Part shown: positions 6,045 through 27,920 of the stretch, piece after piece
Numbering within the stretch: position 1 is the stretch's first letter
How the letters are laid out: every line of letters starts with the position of its first letter
Virus record (IMG/VR): IMGVR_UViG_3300008267_006118
Location: 1 to 43,382 of that record
DNA: 43,382 nucleotides
Reading direction: 5' to 3' (one strand)
Source of the DNA: a virus
The notes under the pieces: generated by a model
Databases searched by the model: none
What the model saw: only the letters and a program-made list of their open reading frames with translations
What the model was told of the DNA's origin: nothing
Made by a program: the position numbers and the translations under genes

Positions 6045-6238
6045 TGGAAATAAAAAAAGTAAATTCACCTGATTTTGCAGCGTGGATAAATATAGGGAAT
6101 GCCTCTTCAGACATAACGCTTGCTAAATCTGCATATGAAAAAAAAGATTATGTGGACTGCTGCATGTGGATTGACATGGCAATCGTAGAACTAATGAACG
6201 CTTACTCTAGAATAAAAAAAGATAACAACATACAATGA
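6044..6238 (+). CDS. Small protein, unknown
   Basis: 64 residues, predicted mainly helical (two helices around residues 22-34 and 42-56). No known motif. It overlaps the upstream stop by one base and the glycosyltransferase start by four (ATGA), so it belongs to the same translational unit. Confidence 0.55.
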   Translation: MEIKKVNSPDFAAWINIGNASSDITLAKSAYEKKDYVDCCMWIDMAIVELMNAYSRIKKDNNIQ

Positions 6239-7248
6239 AACATACATATCACATACTCGGATTACCGCATACAGTTACAAGCAAGGAGTTTAACGCATGC
6301 GCTTATACTCAAAAAGTTTGGAAGTTTGCAAAAATGGCCACAGCTAATGGTCATAATGTAATACATTACGGACATGAAGACTCAGATCCAATTTGCGCTA
6401 CATTCTATAAAAACGCTATTCGTGAGATAGGTTTCCGAAAGAAAAAGTATGACTTTATCCTTCCATTTTGGGGGTCTGGAGTTCGACCTATATGCGATGC
6501 ACATCAAGACATTATAACAGTTGAACCAGGAATTGGGTATGCGGGGGGTCACTGGGCGCGATGGAAGGTGTGGGAAAGTTACGCGATATATCACGCATTC
6601 TGTGGCATGAAAAATGTGGGGACATGCCAGCAAGATTGGTATGACACTATTATTCCGAACTACTTTGAAGTAGAAGATTTCGACTTCAATTCTAAGAAAG
6701 AAGATTACTTCCTATACTTGGGGAGAGTGTACAATGGCAAGGGAGTTGATGTAGCTATTCAAGCAACTGAAAAGGCTGGAGTTAAACTTGTTATAGCTGG
6801 GCAAAAAGAAGAAGGATACAAACTCCCTGACCATGTTGAATACGTTGGCTACGCAAATGTAGCAACTCGAAAGAAACTAATGGCTAATGCGAAGGCATCG
6901 TTCTTGCCGTCGATGTATATTGAGCCATTTGGTGGAGTTCAAATTGAAAACTTATTGTCTGGAACCCCTACAATAACCACCGATTGGGGATCATTTGCTG
7001 AAAACAATTTGCATGGAGTAACAGGGTTTAGGTGTCGGACCATGGGTGATTTTGTTGATGCTATCAAAAACATTGATCAGATTAAGCCAGAGAATTGCAG
7101 GAAGTGGGGAGAAAACTTCTCGCTTGAGAATGTTTGGCCTCGTTATGAAAAGTATTTTGAGGATGTTTTAGATGTGTATCAAGGAAAAGGATGGTATGCG
7201 GACGGGAACAATATTAACGCAATGAAAATGAAGTATCCAAACAAATGA
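6235..7248 (+). CDS. GT-B glycosyltransferase (family 4-like)
   Basis: 337 residues. The C-terminal Rossmann half shows the GT4 pattern: YLGRVYNGKGVDVAIQA, then a predicted strand KLVIAGQKEEG, an EYVGYAN motif and E-x7-E-like MYIEPFGGVQIENLLSGTP, with FAENNLHGVTGF after it. These bind the nucleotide-sugar donor. It transfers a sugar to a yet unknown acceptor: modified DNA base, virion protein or host envelope. Followed by a methyltransferase with a 4-base overlap, so both may decorate the same target. No signal peptide or membrane segment. Confidence 0.8.
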   Translation: MKHTYHILGLPHTVTSKEFNACAYTQKVWKFAKMATANGHNVIHYGHEDSDPICATFYKNAIREIGFRKKKYDFILPFWGSGVRPICDAHQDIITVEPGIGYAGGHWARWKVWESYAIYHAFCGMKNVGTCQQDWYDTIIPNYFEVEDFDFNSKKEDYFLYLGRVYNGKGVDVAIQATEKAGVKLVIAGQKEEGYKLPDHVEYVGYANVATRKKLMANAKASFLPSMYIEPFGGVQIENLLSGTPTITTDWGSFAENNLHGVTGFRCRTMGDFVDAIKNIDQIKPENCRKWGENFSLENVWPRYEKYFEDVLDVYQGKGWYADGNNINAMKMKYPNK

Positions 7249-7781
7249 AACGAATAATTGATGTTGGATGTGGTCCAGCAATCTACGTTAAGGCATTGCG
7301 AGATTGCGGATTTATTGTTGATGGAATTGACCCTGACCCATTGTGTCCTGAAAAAGTTATCAGTATGTTCGATTATTCTGTTGAAGAAAGATATGATATG
7401 GCACTTTGCTTAGAGGTTGCGGAACATATTGACCCATATGAGGCGGATTATGTAGTTGATAAACTAATAGAATTAGCTCCAGTCATTATGTTTTCTGCGG
7501 CACTTCCAGGGCAAGGTGGTCATGGGCATATCAACTGTCAACCAAAAGAATACTGGGAGCATAAATTTGGATGCAGGAATTATGTTTTAGACAGAGAACT
7601 AACAAATTTGTTTATAATTGAAATGCAGCAAGGCTACCATATGGGATGGTTGACAAACAACATTCAGATATTCCGTTCATATGGGGATGTGTGCTATGAG
7701 TCAATCATCAAAGAAGAGACTCCACAGGCTATTCGTGTAGCAGAGTGGGTTAAAAAAAATATAAATCAGCTATGCAAGTAA
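7245..7781 (+). CDS. SAM-dependent methyltransferase (class I fold)
   Basis: 178 residues. Motif I DVGCGPAIYV (about 5-14), an acidic end of strand 2 (VDGIDPDP), and MALCLEVAEHIDPYEAD as motif IV/post-I region define a small class I methyltransferase. WEHKFG and a HGHINCQPKEYW segment are typical of methyltransferases in glycan clusters. It is probably paired with the preceding glycosyltransferase to O-methylate a sugar or modify a small molecule; this is inferred from the overlap and fold only. Confidence 0.75.
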   Translation: MKRIIDVGCGPAIYVKALRDCGFIVDGIDPDPLCPEKVISMFDYSVEERYDMALCLEVAEHIDPYEADYVVDKLIELAPVIMFSAALPGQGGHGHINCQPKEYWEHKFGCRNYVLDRELTNLFIIEMQQGYHMGWLTNNIQIFRSYGDVCYESIIKEETPQAIRVAEWVKKNINQLCK

Positions 7782-8407
7782 AACTGATAAGTGTCACCAA
7801 ACCCTGCGTTGAAGGAATCAACACGGCAGAGGAACTTGTAGCCTATTGCGCTAGGGTTTCCAATCCAAGCAACCAACTAAACACTTCTACCTCATCAAAG
7901 TTATTGAGGTATTGCGCCGACCATCATCATTGGTCAATCTTTGAAATGGTAAATATGTGCTGTGAAATCAAGACAAGTAGAGCTATAGCCGCACAGATTC
8001 TACGTCACAGGTCGTTTTCATTTCAGGAATTCAGTCAACGATACTCGTCGGTAACTGAACTTGAGCCAATTGAATTGCGCCGTCAGGGTAAAACAAATCG
8101 TCAGGTTGGTGATGAAGACTTTGATTTAGCTCCAGAGGATAGAGCTTGGATGTACCAACTACAACATGAGTCACAATTGTTGTACAATAAACTAATAGAT
8201 TCTGGTGTTGCCCGTGAATCGGCAAGGTTTATCCTGCCTCTCAACACGCAGACTACCTTGTATATGTCTGGCACTATTCGCTCATGGATAACCTACCTCC
8301 AGCTTCGGAGCAATCAAGATACTCAGAAAGAACACAGAGACATTGCTGAAGCATTGAAGGTGATATTCAAAAAGGAATTTCCAGCTATCTACGATGCTTT
8401 ATTTTGA
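7772..8407 (+). CDS. thyX: Flavin-dependent thymidylate synthase ThyX
   Basis: 211 residues, full length. The ThyX signature RHRxxSxxxxSxR is complete: R78-H79-R80, S83, S88, R90. The enzyme makes dTMP from dUMP using FAD/NADPH and methylene-tetrahydrofolate. HHHWSIFEM and the C-terminal SWITYLQLRSNQDTQKEHRD block (FAD and dUMP contacts) are also present. With the dCMP-deaminase-family gene (minus strand, 26342) it would give the phage its own dCMP-dUMP-dTMP route. Overlaps the methyltransferase by 10 bases and ends just inside the next promoter. Confidence 0.95.
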   Translation: MQVKLISVTKPCVEGINTAEELVAYCARVSNPSNQLNTSTSSKLLRYCADHHHWSIFEMVNMCCEIKTSRAIAAQILRHRSFSFQEFSQRYSSVTELEPIELRRQGKTNRQVGDEDFDLAPEDRAWMYQLQHESQLLYNKLIDSGVARESARFILPLNTQTTLYMSGTIRSWITYLQLRSNQDTQKEHRDIAEALKVIFKKEFPAIYDALF

Positions 8408-10539: not shown

Positions 10540-11268
10540 ATGAACACACACTCAGATGACATCAGCGAATTAGCGGTTGCTCTTGCAAAAGCGCAAGCCG
10601 AAAACGGAACAGTAACAAAGGATGCAGCTAACCCGTATTTTAAAAGCAAGTACGCTAGTCTTGCTTCTGTATGGGAAGCGGTTCGCCCTGCACTAACAAA
10701 GAATGGATTGTCAGTAATTCAAATGCCATCCCACGATGAGCATGGATATTACCTAGAGACAATGTTGGTTCACTCTTCAGGTCAATGGGTCAAATCAAAA
10801 ATCTACATGAAACCCGTGAAGGATGACCCTCAAGGAATCGGTAGCATTTGCAGTTACATGCGTAGATATTCTTTGCAAGCAATGACAATGGTTTGCCCTG
10901 AAGACGATGACGCTGAAGCGGCAATGGGTAGGACACAGAATGTCCAACAACAGAAGCCAGCGTTCGCAAAGGCAGACGATATTAAAGTTGCAAAGAAGGA
11001 AGAATCTAAACCAATCAAACAAGAAGAACCTAAAGCTGAATCTGGAACTTCCAAGTTCAATGGTCCTTCACACCAAGAGTTGTTCCAATCTCTAATAAAG
11101 GCAGGACATACCCAAGACGATTTCATGGAAGCTATGCGCCACTCTGGTGCAATTCCACAAGCCGCTAAAGACTATTTCGCAATGAAAGAGGCAACTGCGG
11201 ATAAATTTCTAAAAGAATTAGAAAAAACAATAAACGTAATTATAGAATGGAAAGCATTAGTTAAATAA
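10540..11268 (+). CDS. erf: ERF-family single-strand annealing protein
   Basis: 242 residues. The ERF core is clear: ELAVALAKAQAEN, NPYFKSKYASLASVWEAVRP, LTKNGLSVIQ, then PQGIGSICSYMRRYSLQAM and EDDDAE. It anneals complementary single strands produced by the preceding exonuclease. The C-terminal third is a charged variable linker plus a small helical domain (HQELFQSLIKAGHTQDDF...), often used for SSB or partner binding. Confidence 0.93.
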   Translation: MNTHSDDISELAVALAKAQAENGTVTKDAANPYFKSKYASLASVWEAVRPALTKNGLSVIQMPSHDEHGYYLETMLVHSSGQWVKSKIYMKPVKDDPQGIGSICSYMRRYSLQAMTMVCPEDDDAEAAMGRTQNVQQQKPAFAKADDIKVAKKEESKPIKQEEPKAESGTSKFNGPSHQELFQSLIKAGHTQDDFMEAMRHSGAIPQAAKDYFAMKEATADKFLKELEKTINVIIEWKALVK

Positions 11269-12871: not shown

Positions 12872-13358
12872 AAAAACTTACGAGGATTTAACTGAGAAGC
12901 AGAAGAACTACGCACTTAATCGAGTGCGTGGCATGTCGTTGTCTCAAAGTTATCTAAAAGCAGGATACACACAGATAGAAACAAAGTATGCGTCAATACG
13001 GGGTGCTAAAATAGAACAAAGACCACACGTTAAGGAGTACATCAAACATTTGCGTGAGTCTGAGTGGGTTCAGAATGTTTTAACAATAGCTGAAAAGCGT
13101 TCAATGCTTGCTGATCTAGCTAGGGTAAAACCAAATGAGGTGACAGAAGAGAGTCAATTTGCATCCATTACCATTGACGCAGAGGGTAACAGGAGCATCC
13201 AAGGACCAAAGATTTCCGATAAACTCAAAGCTATCGAGTTAGATGCAAAGATTGCAGGGGAGTTGCGTGAATCTGATGACAAGAATCAAGTTCTAATCCA
13301 ACTTATCGACGATAGATTGACCATTGATTCTCCGAAGCAAAGCCTATTGGAACAATGA
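12858..13358 (+). CDS. terS: Terminase small subunit
   Basis: 166 residues from ATG 12858 (a TTG at 12849 is also in frame but less likely). KTYEDLTEKQKNYALNRVRG and SLSQSYLKAGYTQIE are the N-terminal HTH of Terminase_2-type small subunits; 'GAKIEQRPHVKEYI' and the C-terminal SDKLKAIELDAKIAGEL are also typical. It recognises the packaging site and feeds DNA to the large subunit. No large subunit gene follows within the window. Confidence 0.8.
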   Translation: MAAHRKTYEDLTEKQKNYALNRVRGMSLSQSYLKAGYTQIETKYASIRGAKIEQRPHVKEYIKHLRESEWVQNVLTIAEKRSMLADLARVKPNEVTEESQFASITIDAEGNRSIQGPKISDKLKAIELDAKIAGELRESDDKNQVLIQLIDDRLTIDSPKQSLLEQ

Positions 13359-13897
13359 ACTACACAAAAATCGGTGCATTACAAACCCACCGATACATAT
13401 GGGTAGATAGCGAATACACCCACGAAAAACCAATCGGACCAGTCGAAGCTATGTGGGTTGGACTGACGTCAATACCATCGAGGGTGTGGGGGATCAATGT
13501 TATTTTGAGGGATGGAGGAGCATTGTATCGTAACGTCCCTCCTCATGCAATTGGGTTTCAAAAGGATTCGATTAACTGGAGCGTTCAAGATTCGCAACTA
13601 TGGAATTGCTATTCATATAACTTTGCTGTTTTACAGAACCATATCCTTGCTGGACTACCAGTTACAACGAAGATTAAAGATAAAATATTTTCTGGAACGT
13701 ATTTGTTTTCCACAACTCACTTACACGATGGTTGGTCCGACTCTCCAGAGCAAGATAAAGAGTTTATATTTATCCAGTTGTCGAATGGAAGGCTAACCAT
13801 TCAGCCAACCAACAGGGTTGCATTCATTGACTTGTCATTTACCAATAGCAATCTTCCAAAACTAAAACTGCATGATACTATATACTCATGCGAGTAA
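13355..13897 (+). CDS. Unknown protein downstream of terminase small subunit
   Basis: 180 residues, Trp/Tyr-rich, probably a beta-sandwich or ferredoxin-like single domain. No recognised motif. The start overlaps the terminase stop as ATGA. It is the last gene of the plus operon and is followed directly by a strong terminator. Confidence 0.65.
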   Translation: MNYTKIGALQTHRYIWVDSEYTHEKPIGPVEAMWVGLTSIPSRVWGINVILRDGGALYRNVPPHAIGFQKDSINWSVQDSQLWNCYSYNFAVLQNHILAGLPVTTKIKDKIFSGTYLFSTTHLHDGWSDSPEQDKEFIFIQLSNGRLTIQPTNRVAFIDLSFTNSNLPKLKLHDTIYSCE

Positions 13898-23644: not shown

Positions 23645-23956
23645 TTATATTTGCTCCTCAAACCTAGCTTGGTGCTTGATAAACTTAAATGGAATCATTG
23701 GAGTTCCACCATGCCTATTATGAGTAACGTGCATGATATATGCATATGGGTCATCACGCTTCTCTTCATCTGGTATTACCTTGGTAAAACTATCGCAATC
23801 CATGTAGAATGTTCTTGATTCACGTACTGAACCATTCTCGTTCAACTGAGCTAACAATACAATACAAACATTCAATTCTTTTGAGATGATCTTTGCCGTG
23901 CGGCTAACTTCCGCTACTTCACGTTCACGATTCTTGGGATCTCCAGATGCCTCCAT
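23645..23956 (-). pseudogene. C-terminal part of a DnaB-type replicative helicase
   Basis: 103 residues in a different frame from the N-terminal part. It begins (in frame upstream of the ATG) Q-L-M-E-A-S-G and continues with NREREVAEVSRTAKIISKEL, VCIVLLAQLNENGSVRESR (helicase motif H3), then HNRHGGTPMIPFKF, the normal C-terminal motifs of DnaB. The upstream Walker B motif (hhhhDYLQL) is missing. It can only be a fragment unless a frameshift joins the pieces, and even then the Walker B region would be lacking. Confidence 0.75.
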
Positions 23957-24839
23957 TAATTGAGCCAGTCATTGATGCTTCATCTACGATATATATCGGC
24001 AGCTTGGATGATTTGTTGATAGCTGCTGATAACTTCTTGTGGTCTTCGTTCTTCAACTTGCCATCAAGAAGATCGCTCAATGCAATCTTGCTTGTAGCTG
24101 CGATATACTTGTCAACTAATTCTTCAGCGGACATCTCCATGCTAATAATAGCTACTGGAACATTATCGTTAAATGCTGAGTTTGTTACCATCTGTAGCGA
24201 TGATGTAGTCTTCCCAGCCTTGGCTGCTCCAGCAATGATGTGAAGTGTGCGTGGGCGAAATCCTCTGGTTGCCATATCCCACTTCATAAATCCAGAAGAG
24301 TGTCCACGATTGACTGCTCCGTTCGTAACAGCAGCTTCTTCCCAACGATTGATGCAGGAGTTAAGAACCTCTCCGATATGCTTCACTTCTGTCCGAGTTG
24401 ATGACATCGAAACAATGTCCTTGCTTGCCTCTTCCTGTAGTTCGATTGGATCTTTAGTGCGGTCAACAGCATCGTTCATCATCCGCTTGCACACAGAAAG
24501 AATCTTTCTGCGGACCATGCAATCCTTGATCGTCTCAAAGTATGATGTCCAGTTAGCCGAGCTATAAACGATAGTATATAACTCAGACACGTAATGATCT
24601 CCACCTATCCTGTCTAGTTCTCCAGATGATCGCAGAAAAGAAATGACAGTCAGCATATCAACTGGATTTTTATCTAGCCACATTTGGCTAATTGCATTCC
24701 AGATTATTTTGTGACTATCGAAGTAAAAGAACTCAGGAGTTAACTTCTCTATTGTCTTCTCTATGACTCTTATATCTTGCATTGCGGAAGAGATAAAACC
24801 TTTCTCTGCCTCCATGTCGTGTGGTAGTATTGTGTTCAT
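23925..24839 (-). pseudogene. N-terminal part of a DnaB-type replicative helicase
   Basis: 304 residues from ATG 24839 (MNTILPHDMEAEKGFIS). N-terminal DnaB domain, then GFRPRTLHIIAGAAKAGKTT with Walker A at 204-212, IISMEMSAEELVDKYIAATS (H1a region), and PIYIVDEASMTGS, after which the frame ends in S-I-N-G-G-I-W-R-S-Q-E-S and TGA. The expected Walker B helix and DYLQLM element of about 25-30 residues are absent and the remaining C-terminal domain lies in another frame. A deletion between CAATT repeats would explain it (see findings). Confidence 0.8.
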
Positions 24840-24849
24840 GTTCGTATGC

Positions 24850-24878
24850 ACTATATGTAGTGCCGTGAAGCATGTCAA
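24850..24878 (-). promoter_or_regulatory. Strong sigma-70-like promoter of the helicase gene
   Basis: Minus strand TTGACA (24878-24873), 17-base spacer, TATAGT (24855-24850). The helicase ATG (24839) lies 10 bases after the -10, so the mRNA would begin about at the start codon. TATAGTGCATAC also occurs at 21253-21242. Confidence 0.75.
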
Positions 24879-25952: not shown

Positions 25953-26342
25953 TTACACTTTAATTAAAGTTATACCAAAATCACTAGCAACTTCTAAAGC
26001 TATTGTATCATTTAAGTATACTTCCTTGTAGTATACCTTCTTTATTCCGTATCCTGCAAAGGCACGAAGGCAATCTCTGCATGGGAGAAGTGTGCATGCA
26101 GCCATGTAACACTCGTTTGGTCTAACGTATCTCAATGCATTTTGTTCTGCATGGACAACGTAAATTCTACGTCTGTCTCTGCATGACCAATCTTCTTTCA
26201 TTCCTTGCGGGAATCCATTGTATCCTACAGATGCGATTGAATTATCGTGACGCAGTAGAACCGCTCCTACTTTCTTCCACGGATCTTTAGATTTCAACGA
26301 AACAGCTTCAGCTATATTCATTGCGTATTTATGCCATGTCAT
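25953..26342 (-). CDS. dCMP deaminase-family protein
   Basis: 129 residues from ATG 26342 (MTWHKYAMNIAEAV); the ORF is open to 26378 but the first in-frame codons there lack a family match. Zinc site: H64-A-E66 (Glu66 is the proton shuttle), Cys88 and Cys91 in PCRDC. Converts dCMP to dUMP, the substrate of ThyX. The gene lies downstream of a long structured segment on its own strand, suggesting leader control. It is isolated between plus-strand genes. Confidence 0.85.
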   Translation of the reverse strand: MTWHKYAMNIAEAVSLKSKDPWKKVGAVLLRHDNSIASVGYNGFPQGMKEDWSCRDRRRIYVVHAEQNALRYVRPNECYMAACTLLPCRDCLRAFAGYGIKKVYYKEVYLNDTIALEVASDFGITLIKV

Positions 26343-26379
26343 TATCAATATCCTTATTTGGTGGTGAGTTCGGTGCATA

Positions 26380-26403
26380 GCAGTTCCTACTAAAAGAAAC
26401 TGC
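26380..26403 (-). promoter_or_regulatory. Alternative hairpin competing with the long-range stem
   Basis: GCAGTTTC (26403-26396) pairs with GGAACTGC (26387-26380) over 8 positions including one G-U. The same GGAACTGC can instead pair with GCAGTTCC at 26690-26683. The two pairings exclude each other, which is how many RNA switches work. Confidence 0.4.
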
Positions 26404-26690
26404 TAAAATCATACCTCCTTGTTCGTATGGAGCCGTTCGTATGCTTTTATGAATCACTCAGCCAGAGGTCGTCCTTATCCTAGCTTTACTTAGTTTACAC
26501 CTTTCGGTGAGAGTCAGTCTGATTCGCAATCTCCTTCCTTTCGGAAAGAGCGTATTAAGTTGGTAGTCTATTAACCCTTCCAACACCTCTCCTTCACACG
26601 GGAGTCCTTTACAGGTTTGTTCCATAGTCAGGGGATAGAACCCTGCCGTGCTACACTCATCTTATTTTACAGGCTCATTTCGGGAACTGC
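26380..26690 (-). ncRNA. Predicted multi-branched structured RNA or leader of the deaminase gene
   Basis: About 311 nt without coding potential. Long-range stem: GCAGTTCC (26690-26683) with GGAACTGC (26387-26380), 8 Watson-Crick pairs. Inside, on the minus strand: CTCTTTCC-GAAA-GGAAGGAG (8 bp with one G-U), CACC-GAAA-GGTG, CAGGG-TTCTATC-CCCTG, GTTGG...CCAAC, and CATAC...CTCC/GGAG...GTATG. The G-U pairs and two GNRA loops fold properly only on the minus strand. The 3' end lies 37 bases before the deaminase ATG. It matches no RNA class I know. Confidence 0.55.
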
Positions 26691-26713
26691 CGTAGCTTCA
26701 TGCGAAAGAAAAA

Positions 26714-26744
26714 CCCGCCTTGATAGTCACAATATCAAGACGGG
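26714..26744 (-). terminator. Long hairpin with T-runs on both sides, loop TTGTGAC
   Basis: Stem of 12 bp (minus strand CCCGTCTTGATA / TATCAAGGCGGG, one G-U pair) and a 7-base loop TTGTGAC; T5 follows on either strand (plus 26746-26750; minus 26713-26709). By stem form it suits a minus transcript and looks like an intrinsic terminator. Its loop is complementary to that of the neighbouring hairpin. Confidence 0.6.
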
Positions 26745-26767
26745 ATTTTTGCGGGGAAAAATTGTTC

Positions 26768-26786
26768 TGAATCTTGTGACGATTCA
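26768..26786 (-). ncRNA. Hairpin with loop GTCACAA, exact complement of the neighbouring loop
   Basis: Minus strand TGAATC-GTCACAA-GATTCA: 6-bp stem, 7-base loop. The loop is the exact reverse complement of loop TTGTGAC of the hairpin at 26714-26744, so the two can form a 7-bp kissing pair. A TTGACA box (minus 26828-26823) lies upstream, so the hairpin would be at the start of a minus transcript. Confidence 0.45.
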
Positions 26787-26805
26787 ATTAAGATGAATTC
26801 AAATT

Positions 26806-26858
26806 ATCAGCACTAAGTAAAATGTCAACTTGATTTTTTTAAAAAATTGTTTAACAAT
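26806..26858. promoter_or_regulatory. Divergent promoter region of the late operon and the structured RNA
   Basis: Plus strand: TTGATT (26830-26835), 17 bases, AACAAT (26853-26858), then ATG at 26866. The palindrome ATTGTTTAACAAT (26846-26858) overlaps the -10. Minus strand: perfect TTGACA (26828-26823) with GATAAT-like bases 14-16 bases downstream. The two -35 boxes are back to back. Match to -10 consensus is only moderate on both strands. Confidence 0.4.
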
Positions 26859-26865
26859 AACTGCG

Positions 26866-27057
26866 ATGAACAAAACACAAGGCTCTGAACAAGCTATGAA
26901 ACGTAAACTCAGCGAGTGCATGTCCTCTCTATCCAAGTGGTGCTTCAATCGCGCAAGTGGGAACTTTAATCCAGAAACCACAATGATAATGCTGGCGCAC
27001 AAAGTTGTTGAGATGACAGACCGAATCGAGAGGGCTGGAAAGGTTAGATATAAATGA
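26866..27057 (+). CDS. Small basic protein, first gene of the late operon
   Basis: 63 residues from ATG 26866; the open frame extends to 26830 but those bases are promoter. Basic helical N-terminus (NKTQGSEQAMKRKLSECMSS) followed by IMLAHKVVEMTDRIERAG. No domain recognised. ATG lies 7 bases after the -10 candidate; its stop overlaps the next start as ATGA. Confidence 0.55.
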   Translation: MNKTQGSEQAMKRKLSECMSSLSKWCFNRASGNFNPETTMIMLAHKVVEMTDRIERAGKVRYK

Positions 27058-27920
27058 ACGCATTCCATTCAGGCTGCATAGGTGACATCATTTATTCAAT
27101 TCCAACACTACACAAACTTGGTGTAGAGTCCCTGTTTATTGCAGATAGACCATGGACAAAACCAATCGTTAATAGAATCGGTGCATTTGATAGGATACTT
27201 GAGAGTCAAGGGATAAAGGTTAGAGAGCATAAAGGAGAGAATATTGACTATGATCTATCTACTTACCGCAGTGCGGGTCACAAGTACGGGGAAACTATTG
27301 TATCAAAGATAGCTAGATGGGTTAACGTCCACGTAGATGTGTCGGAAAAAAGTATACGTATTTCCGACAAAACTCCTTATACAAAAGGAAAGATTGTTGT
27401 AGGTAGATGTCCTAGATGGCATGGAGAAAACTTTCCGTGGAAAGAAATTGTTGAACAATACGGGAGTGACATTGTTTTCATTGGACTACCTGAAGAATAC
27501 AAGGCATTCACAAAAGAATTTGGGAACGTGGATTATTATCACACAATAGACCTTTATGACGTTGCTGAAGCTGTTAATGGGTGCGACATCTACTTTGGGA
27601 ATCAAAGCTCACCAATGGCTATTTGCGAGGGATTAAAGCATGACTGCGTACAGGAATGTTGTCTATACGCTTTTGACTGCGTTTATCATAGGGGAAATAA
27701 AGTTCATGTCATAGATGGGAACTTTACGTTCACGCATAAAGGAAGAGTATTTGATTATAAAATTGAACCACCAAAGCATGGATATAAAATAACTATTAAT
27801 GGTTATGACTTCCATTCAAGAGATAAAGATGTATGCGTAACAATAGCACGTGCATACTTGACTATGAACAATATACAATGTAATGTTGATTCACTAAAAG
27901 AATTAGTTAAATTATATTAA
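27054..27920 (+). CDS. Glycosyltransferase family 9-like protein
   Basis: 288 residues. N-terminal GCIGDIIYSIPTLHKLG is the GD-x-(I/V)-x-(T/S)-x-P pattern of GT9 (heptosyltransferase) proteins; the second half has KIVVGRCPRWHGENFPWKEI, DIVFIGLPEEYKAF, then a GNQSSPMAICEGL motif where the acceptor/donor cleft lies. It transfers a sugar, possibly to virion or host envelope. It sits at the head of the virion operon, unlike the GT4-type enzyme at 6235. Confidence 0.7.
   Translation: MNAFHSGCIGDIIYSIPTLHKLGVESLFIADRPWTKPIVNRIGAFDRILESQGIKVREHKGENIDYDLSTYRSAGHKYGETIVSKIARWVNVHVDVSEKSIRISDKTPYTKGKIVVGRCPRWHGENFPWKEIVEQYGSDIVFIGLPEEYKAFTKEFGNVDYYHTIDLYDVAEAVNGCDIYFGNQSSPMAICEGLKHDCVQECCLYAFDCVYHRGNKVHVIDGNFTFTHKGRVFDYKIEPPKHGYKITINGYDFHSRDKDVCVTIARAYLTMNNIQCNVDSLKELVKLY

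Follow-up and report, generated by a model that had tools for sequence, protein, structure and literature searches.

The known large RNAs of phages are few (GOLLD, ROOL and pRNA), and what most of them are for is a long-standing puzzle. Related behaviour is found in the plasmid systems ColE1 RNA I/II and R1 CopA/CopT, in which 7-nt loops kiss and fast diversification of the loops sets compatibility. The conserved kissing loops of ROOL were first seen as covariation and were then proved intermolecular by cryo-EM (PMC12286853), and the interlocking loops of pRNA differ between phages with conserved energetics of dimerisation (PMC5340915). Here we describe an RNA from IMG/VR virus record IMGVR_UViG_3300008267_006118, of which the whole stretch from position 1 to 43,382 was analysed (43,382 nt, the window). 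The RNA belongs to a new family that had no match in Rfam 15 or in the searched collection of isolated phages, although its core shows strong conservation.

The RNA was located in noncoding DNA between a dCMP-deaminase-family gene (25953-26342, minus strand; PF00383, E=4.1e-17; phrog_174, E=2.8e-34), which lies outside it, and a divergent gene at 27054. The longest deaminase ORF begins at 26378, but its start was placed at 26342 because alignment with homologues sets in only at residue ~10-13. Folding the single sequence gave a result only a little better than expected at random (z = -1.73 for the minus and -1.92 for the plus strand), so the finding is weak on its own and it is the homologues that decide it. 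Relatives were gathered by a search with the deaminase protein, followed by blastn of the region against them, and IMG/VR was scanned with patterns. The blastn comparison revealed a shared block (about 26797-26358) at 98% identity in two contigs and at 81-82% in three more; six other relatives were alike over the first ~130 nt and then had a different core. From the homologue alignments the RNA extends from about 26797 to 26345 on the minus strand (~450 nt), with its 3' end near 26345 placed by conservation only, at the close of the conserved tail AUGCNCCGANYUCACCACC (26345-26378, minus strand, alignment A1). The preliminary description had set the limits at 26690 and 26380, a range in which the RNA is indeed present but from which the 5' module is missing. 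It had also regarded the region as free of genes, and we found no open frame conserved across homologues, the longest ORFs differing in frame, strand and position between them.

Upstream of the RNA we identified a -35 element, TTGACA (26823-26828), a -10-like element that by consensus reads GATAAT (26803-26808; TATAAT in several homologues), and a conserved CATC (26792-26795) that in the alignments probably marks the RNA 5' end, all on the minus strand. Of 43 distinct loci, 42 had a TTGAC that precedes the CATC block by 32-34 nt, and a -10-like element lay between the two. These elements suggest that the RNA starts near 26797, with a start site at about 26795-26798, and that it is read from its own predicted sigma-70-like promoter spanning 26828-26803.

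The structure was evaluated on alignment A1, which comprises 19 sequences. The proposed structure has 96 pairs, and 96.7% of its cells were paired. Changes on both sides were seen in 39 pairs, compared to 22.0 (sd 2.6) in shuffles, and in 143 cells compared to 38.5; when partners were slid by 1-3 columns, no more than 15 pairs and 33 cells showed such changes. Independent of these two controls was a tree-aware null, home-made and rough, in which substitutions were re-dealt along a FastTree tree in 60 replicates. Its top six column pairs were all proposed pairs, and E<0.05 was reached by three, namely kissing pairs 9-87 and 11-85 and P3 pair 110-136 (E=0.000); the small number of individually significant pairs, only three, reflects how little much of the core varies. 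The structure contained 135 G-U cells compared to 12 A-C cells, which fixes the minus strand as the RNA strand, as the preliminary description had proposed.

All helices of the type 1 core, the one found in the window, are on the minus strand. P3 (26703-26707 with 26677-26682; overall 26677-26707) surrounds P4 and an AUGAAGC..GCAGUUCCC motif that was common to all four core types described below. P5, with P5a at 26629-26645, occupies 26623-26655; all of its cells were paired (100%), and column pair 174-186 was among the top six covariations. P6 (a GNRA hairpin, 26606-26615), P7 (26587-26604) and P8 (26559-26584) make up a near-invariant core in A1 (26559-26615), in which covariation was weak because the columns are mostly invariant. 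They are followed by P9 (26532-26549), a hairpin with a C-GAAA-G loop in which 6 of 7 pairs changed on both sides, and by P10 (26520-26525 with 26451-26456; 4 of 6 pairs), which spans 26451-26525 and encloses P11, a second C-GAAA-G hairpin, P12 (26498-26509; 2 of 4 pairs), and P13 (26460-26485; 2 of 4 pairs). P14 (26439-26450 with 26405-26414; overall 26405-26450), which was drawn by eye and left unscored, surrounds the conserved motif CGGCUCCAUACGARNAAG, whose form in type 2 is CGAUUCCUAUACGGRAG. The 3' hairpin P15, AGCAGUUUCU..AGGAACUGCU (26379-26404), was paired in 96.1% of cells. Both C-GAAA-G hairpins had been recognised from the single sequence, and so had the helix at 26380-26403, which corresponds to P15. 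Two other early assignments did not survive the alignment. A helix at 26550-26569 falls outside the supported structure, its place being taken by P8. The 8-bp stem GCAGUUCC/GGAACUGC, thought to close the whole RNA, was unsupported, since its 3' strand forms a local hairpin instead; in L055, where the long stem would be disrupted, the local pairing is kept (GCAGUAUCCC/GGGAUCUGC), and in L044 the 5' strand is missing.

The strongest covariation signal came from the 5' module. Hairpin H1 (26767-26787, minus strand) was paired in 91.8% of stem cells with three pairs changed on both sides, and hairpin H2 (26713-26745, minus strand) has 13 pairs, six of them changed on both sides, is terminator-like and is followed by a U run. 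The 7-nt loop of H1, GUCACAA (26774-26780), is the exact complement of the 7-nt loop of H2, UUGUGAC (26726-26732), and all seven pairs of the resulting kissing helix had changed on both sides. Wherever both loops could be extracted, the loops of a locus were exactly complementary over 6-9 nt (34 of 34 loci, types 1 and 2), compared to a mean of 4.2 when loops were swapped between loci. L075, which lies outside both groups, has ten complementary loop nucleotides as read from its sequence (GGUUGCCCCC/GGGGGCAACC). We are nearly certain that the kissing pair is real.

The loops also change far faster than the remainder of the RNA. L061 and L051 differed at 0 of 336 core columns and at 9 of 14 loop positions (Fisher 1e-14), and the window and L025 differed at 1 of 338 and 6 of 14 (8e-9). 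Type 2 loops were likewise hypervariable, with L035 and L038 differing at 3 of 392 positions in the core and at 3 of 7 in the H2 loop. Complementarity was still kept in these near-identical RNAs with different loops, which thereby offer a natural experiment on phage RNA self-recognition. Recombination of the module as a whole, or templated correction of the inverted repeat, could account for part of the coordinated loop change. Furthermore, four relatives without the RNA core (L007, L010, L011 and L018) retained a hairpin at the H2 position; H1 was missing in three of them, and in L007 the two loops were identical in sequence and unable to pair, indicating that complementarity goes with the presence of the RNA.

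These features bear on two further explanations of the module. H2 might be an intrinsic terminator, such that RNAs of ~90 nt comprising H1 and H2 would kiss nascent transcripts and set read-through into the long RNA. The outcome would be a circuit for copy control or superinfection immunity that resembles the antisense systems of plasmids. A circuit of this kind would also select for loop diversity, and the hypervariable loops do resemble incompatibility determinants; H2 scores as a terminator, H2 plus U5 resembles one in most members, in which the U run is kept, and the hairpin persists in the relatives that lack the RNA. We nevertheless consider it improbable, because L053, L056 and L057 have no U run but retain the core, H1, H2 and their kissing pair, and because the second half of the U run pairs in P3. 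The other explanation accepts the same stand-alone RNA and holds that the loops kiss only in cis and fold the 5' end of an RNA that acts as a monomer, as a scaffold or as a decoy directed, for instance, at a host protein; the loop sequence would drift freely while complementarity is maintained. The linker between H1 and H2 is 21-36 nt long and permits such pairing, which makes it a live rival; there is one copy per phage, and modular cores would suit changing targets. It seems unlikely to us all the same, as the turnover of loops in near-identical RNAs was faster than drift with slow compensation would suggest and as the precedents of ROOL and pRNA are intermolecular. That kissing occurs chiefly between molecules has, in our judgement, close to an even chance.

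Pattern scans detected the type 1 core in 18-20 IMG/VR contigs. The type 2 core occurs in about 25 contigs; its pattern gave 26 matches in IMG/VR, of which three, L064, L068 and L069, were rejected as arising by chance; L076-L078 and L080-L083, chance matches to other patterns, were likewise rejected as RNA carriers. Type 2 adopts a different multi-branched fold, in which two-sided changes were seen at 30 of the 78 predicted pairs. The same 5' module was also found in front of a third core in L020 and L045, and of a fourth core in L075. The latter is a phage of 71.9 kb, and its genes near the RNA are unlike those of all others. The L075 RNA directly follows tRNA-Gly and tRNA-Arg genes; the tRNAs of the window are 6 kb from its RNA. 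The fourth core (L075:7060-7760, plus strand) is possibly longer than type 1 and folds with z = -3.84 over 701 nt, with no Rfam match. In general layout the RNAs have the 5' module (H1, H2 and P3/P4) in common, followed by a core that can be exchanged; types 1-3 also have a 3' motif in common. The downstream flank is the same in L015, which has type 1, and in L017, which has type 2; the cores therefore take each other's place at a single site. A single contig, IMGVR_UViG_3300042938_001476, has type 1 at its start (L049) and type 2 at its end (L035) with the same flanks; the identity of the flanks suggests two strain alleles joined by assembly, the other option being a tandem pair in a circular genome. 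Four RNA queries had no blastn match among the INPHARED isolated phages, where the L075 query gave short chance-level matches only, and neighbouring proteins had no tblastn match there; in GTDB genomes neither the type 1 nor the type 2 motif had an exact match.

The swapping of cores at one site, together with the position at a strand switch in lineage A, would also fit a DNA element such as an origin, a recombination site or a mobile intron-like element. We regard this as very improbable, because the ratio of 135 G-U to 12 A-C cells is explained only by an RNA strand, the promoter is conserved, and no match to group I or group II, transposon or origin families was obtained; the GC skew merely follows gene direction and is uninformative on a replication origin. 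Comparison of the homologues instead showed what is best described as an RNA gene, with a predicted kissing module at its 5' end that is common to four cores and with fast, coordinated change of the loops.

Gene order was then informative on the relation to the deaminase. The RNA occurs in two phage lineages, at one fixed site in each, and types 1 and 2 are present in both. In lineage A, that of the window, the RNA lies at a strand switch, and either the deaminase or other genes come after it. Control of the deaminase gene by a riboswitch or 5' leader, in line with the nucleotide-sensing leader first suggested, would agree with the window, L025, L041 and L045, where that gene starts directly after the RNA. 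We hold this to be most improbable, since the deaminase is 0.6 kb (L005) to 2.5 kb (L015) away in other relatives or is replaced by other genes, and since the flanking genes of lineage B are both antisense to the RNA, which thus cannot be the leader of a neighbouring gene there. No conserved in-line position 5' of a gene, of the kind a riboswitch or leader has, was found, and the proximity to which meaning had been attached is not conserved. As a general role, control of the deaminase is refuted by gene order.

Several other genes were recorded. A 288-aa protein (27054-27920, plus strand), which by eye we take to be heptosyltransferase-like, is conserved in both lineages with no Pfam or PHROG match; it adjoins the RNA in lineage A and is 2-3 genes off in lineage B. 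At the RNA site of L007, L010, L011 and L018 (about 3.5-5.0 kb in each) a helix-turn-helix-like gene stands behind the H2 variant, and different homing-endonuclease-like genes are also at this site in L007/L010 and in L018. Elsewhere in the window, a DnaB-like helicase (23645-24878, minus strand) is split into ORFs of 317 and 103 aa, through either a frameshift or an assembly error, and is one ORF of 423-434 aa in relatives such as L004 and L025. The window also encodes ThyX (7772-8407), an ERF recombinase (10540-11268) and two auxiliary genes, of the ferredoxin family (13355-13897, plus strand; phrog_3704) and for a glycosyltransferase (6235-7248, plus strand; phrog_3408).

Collectively, these data indicate that the locus almost certainly encodes a stand-alone functional noncoding RNA. 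We favour, as the probable reading of the sequence comparisons, a stand-alone phage RNA that serves as a scaffold, in the manner of ROOL, GOLLD and pRNA, and recognises its own kind through its loops; that the type 1 RNA is smaller than ROOL or GOLLD counts against a likeness to these two. By analogy with ROOL and pRNA, the H1 loop of one molecule would kiss the H2 loop of the next, and the RNA may form assemblies with itself, a behaviour it would share with ROOL, GOLLD and phi29 pRNA. The core might then be the working part, binding a macromolecule of the host or phage such as a protein, a ribosome or a nucleic acid. Fast loop change with kept complementarity would stop mixing with the RNAs of co-infecting relatives and so act as a self/non-self code. 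The broadest version, a superfamily in which a 5' module with fast-evolving self-complementary loops provides this code for homotypic assembly to at least four interchangeable cores in unrelated phages, is proposed tentatively and is in our view somewhat less probable than otherwise. Should compatibility be set by the loops, a self-recognition system would operate at the RNA level between co-infecting phages.

We compared the RNA with described families. Apart from two obvious chance matches, no Rfam 15 family matched the window even at E<=10. The ROOL, GOLLD and OLE models gave nothing at gathering score or at E<=10 in the window, L014 and L075, and nothing at gathering score in 12 loci. Models of packaging RNA (pRNA), group I and group II introns, RNase P, tmRNA and riboswitch families had no match either, consistent with the initial impression that none of the riboswitch, tmRNA, RNase P and group I/II signatures tried was present, and the open-access literature we searched contained no description of this RNA family. 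Having no Rfam match to ROOL, GOLLD, OLE, pRNA, introns, RNase P or tmRNA, the RNA was filed under none of them. The suggestion that it belongs to the broad class of large ornate phage RNAs gained support from its covarying multi-branched structure combined with the absence of an Rfam match, from homologues found only in IMG/VR phage contigs, from a conserved promoter of its own and from the tRNA adjacency in L075, a position that has been reported for ROOL and GOLLD.

Like ROOL, it is a large structured noncoding RNA of phages and prophages with covariation-supported kissing loops and an occasional place beside tRNAs (here in L075). It differs from ROOL in length (~450 compared to ~660 nt), in having no match to the ROOL Rfam model, and in a 5' kissing pair that joins two neighbouring hairpins, with hypervariable loops and exchangeable cores. 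GOLLD, too, is a phage RNA in which one end is conserved and the rest varies, and it comes from marine and lake samples; however, its shared part is the 3' half and not a 5' module, and the RNA described here is about half as long or less and has no Rfam match. In contrast to ColE1 RNA I/II and R1 CopA/CopT, both loops are on the same transcript and strand, and neither an antisense transcript nor a replication primer was identified. The phi29-family pRNA shares with it two interlocking loops that vary between phages and are still complementary, whereas the present RNA is 2-3 times longer, matches no pRNA model and resides in phages with unrelated genes. In summary, the RNA as a whole is most like the ornate phage RNAs, and its loops are most like those of pRNA.
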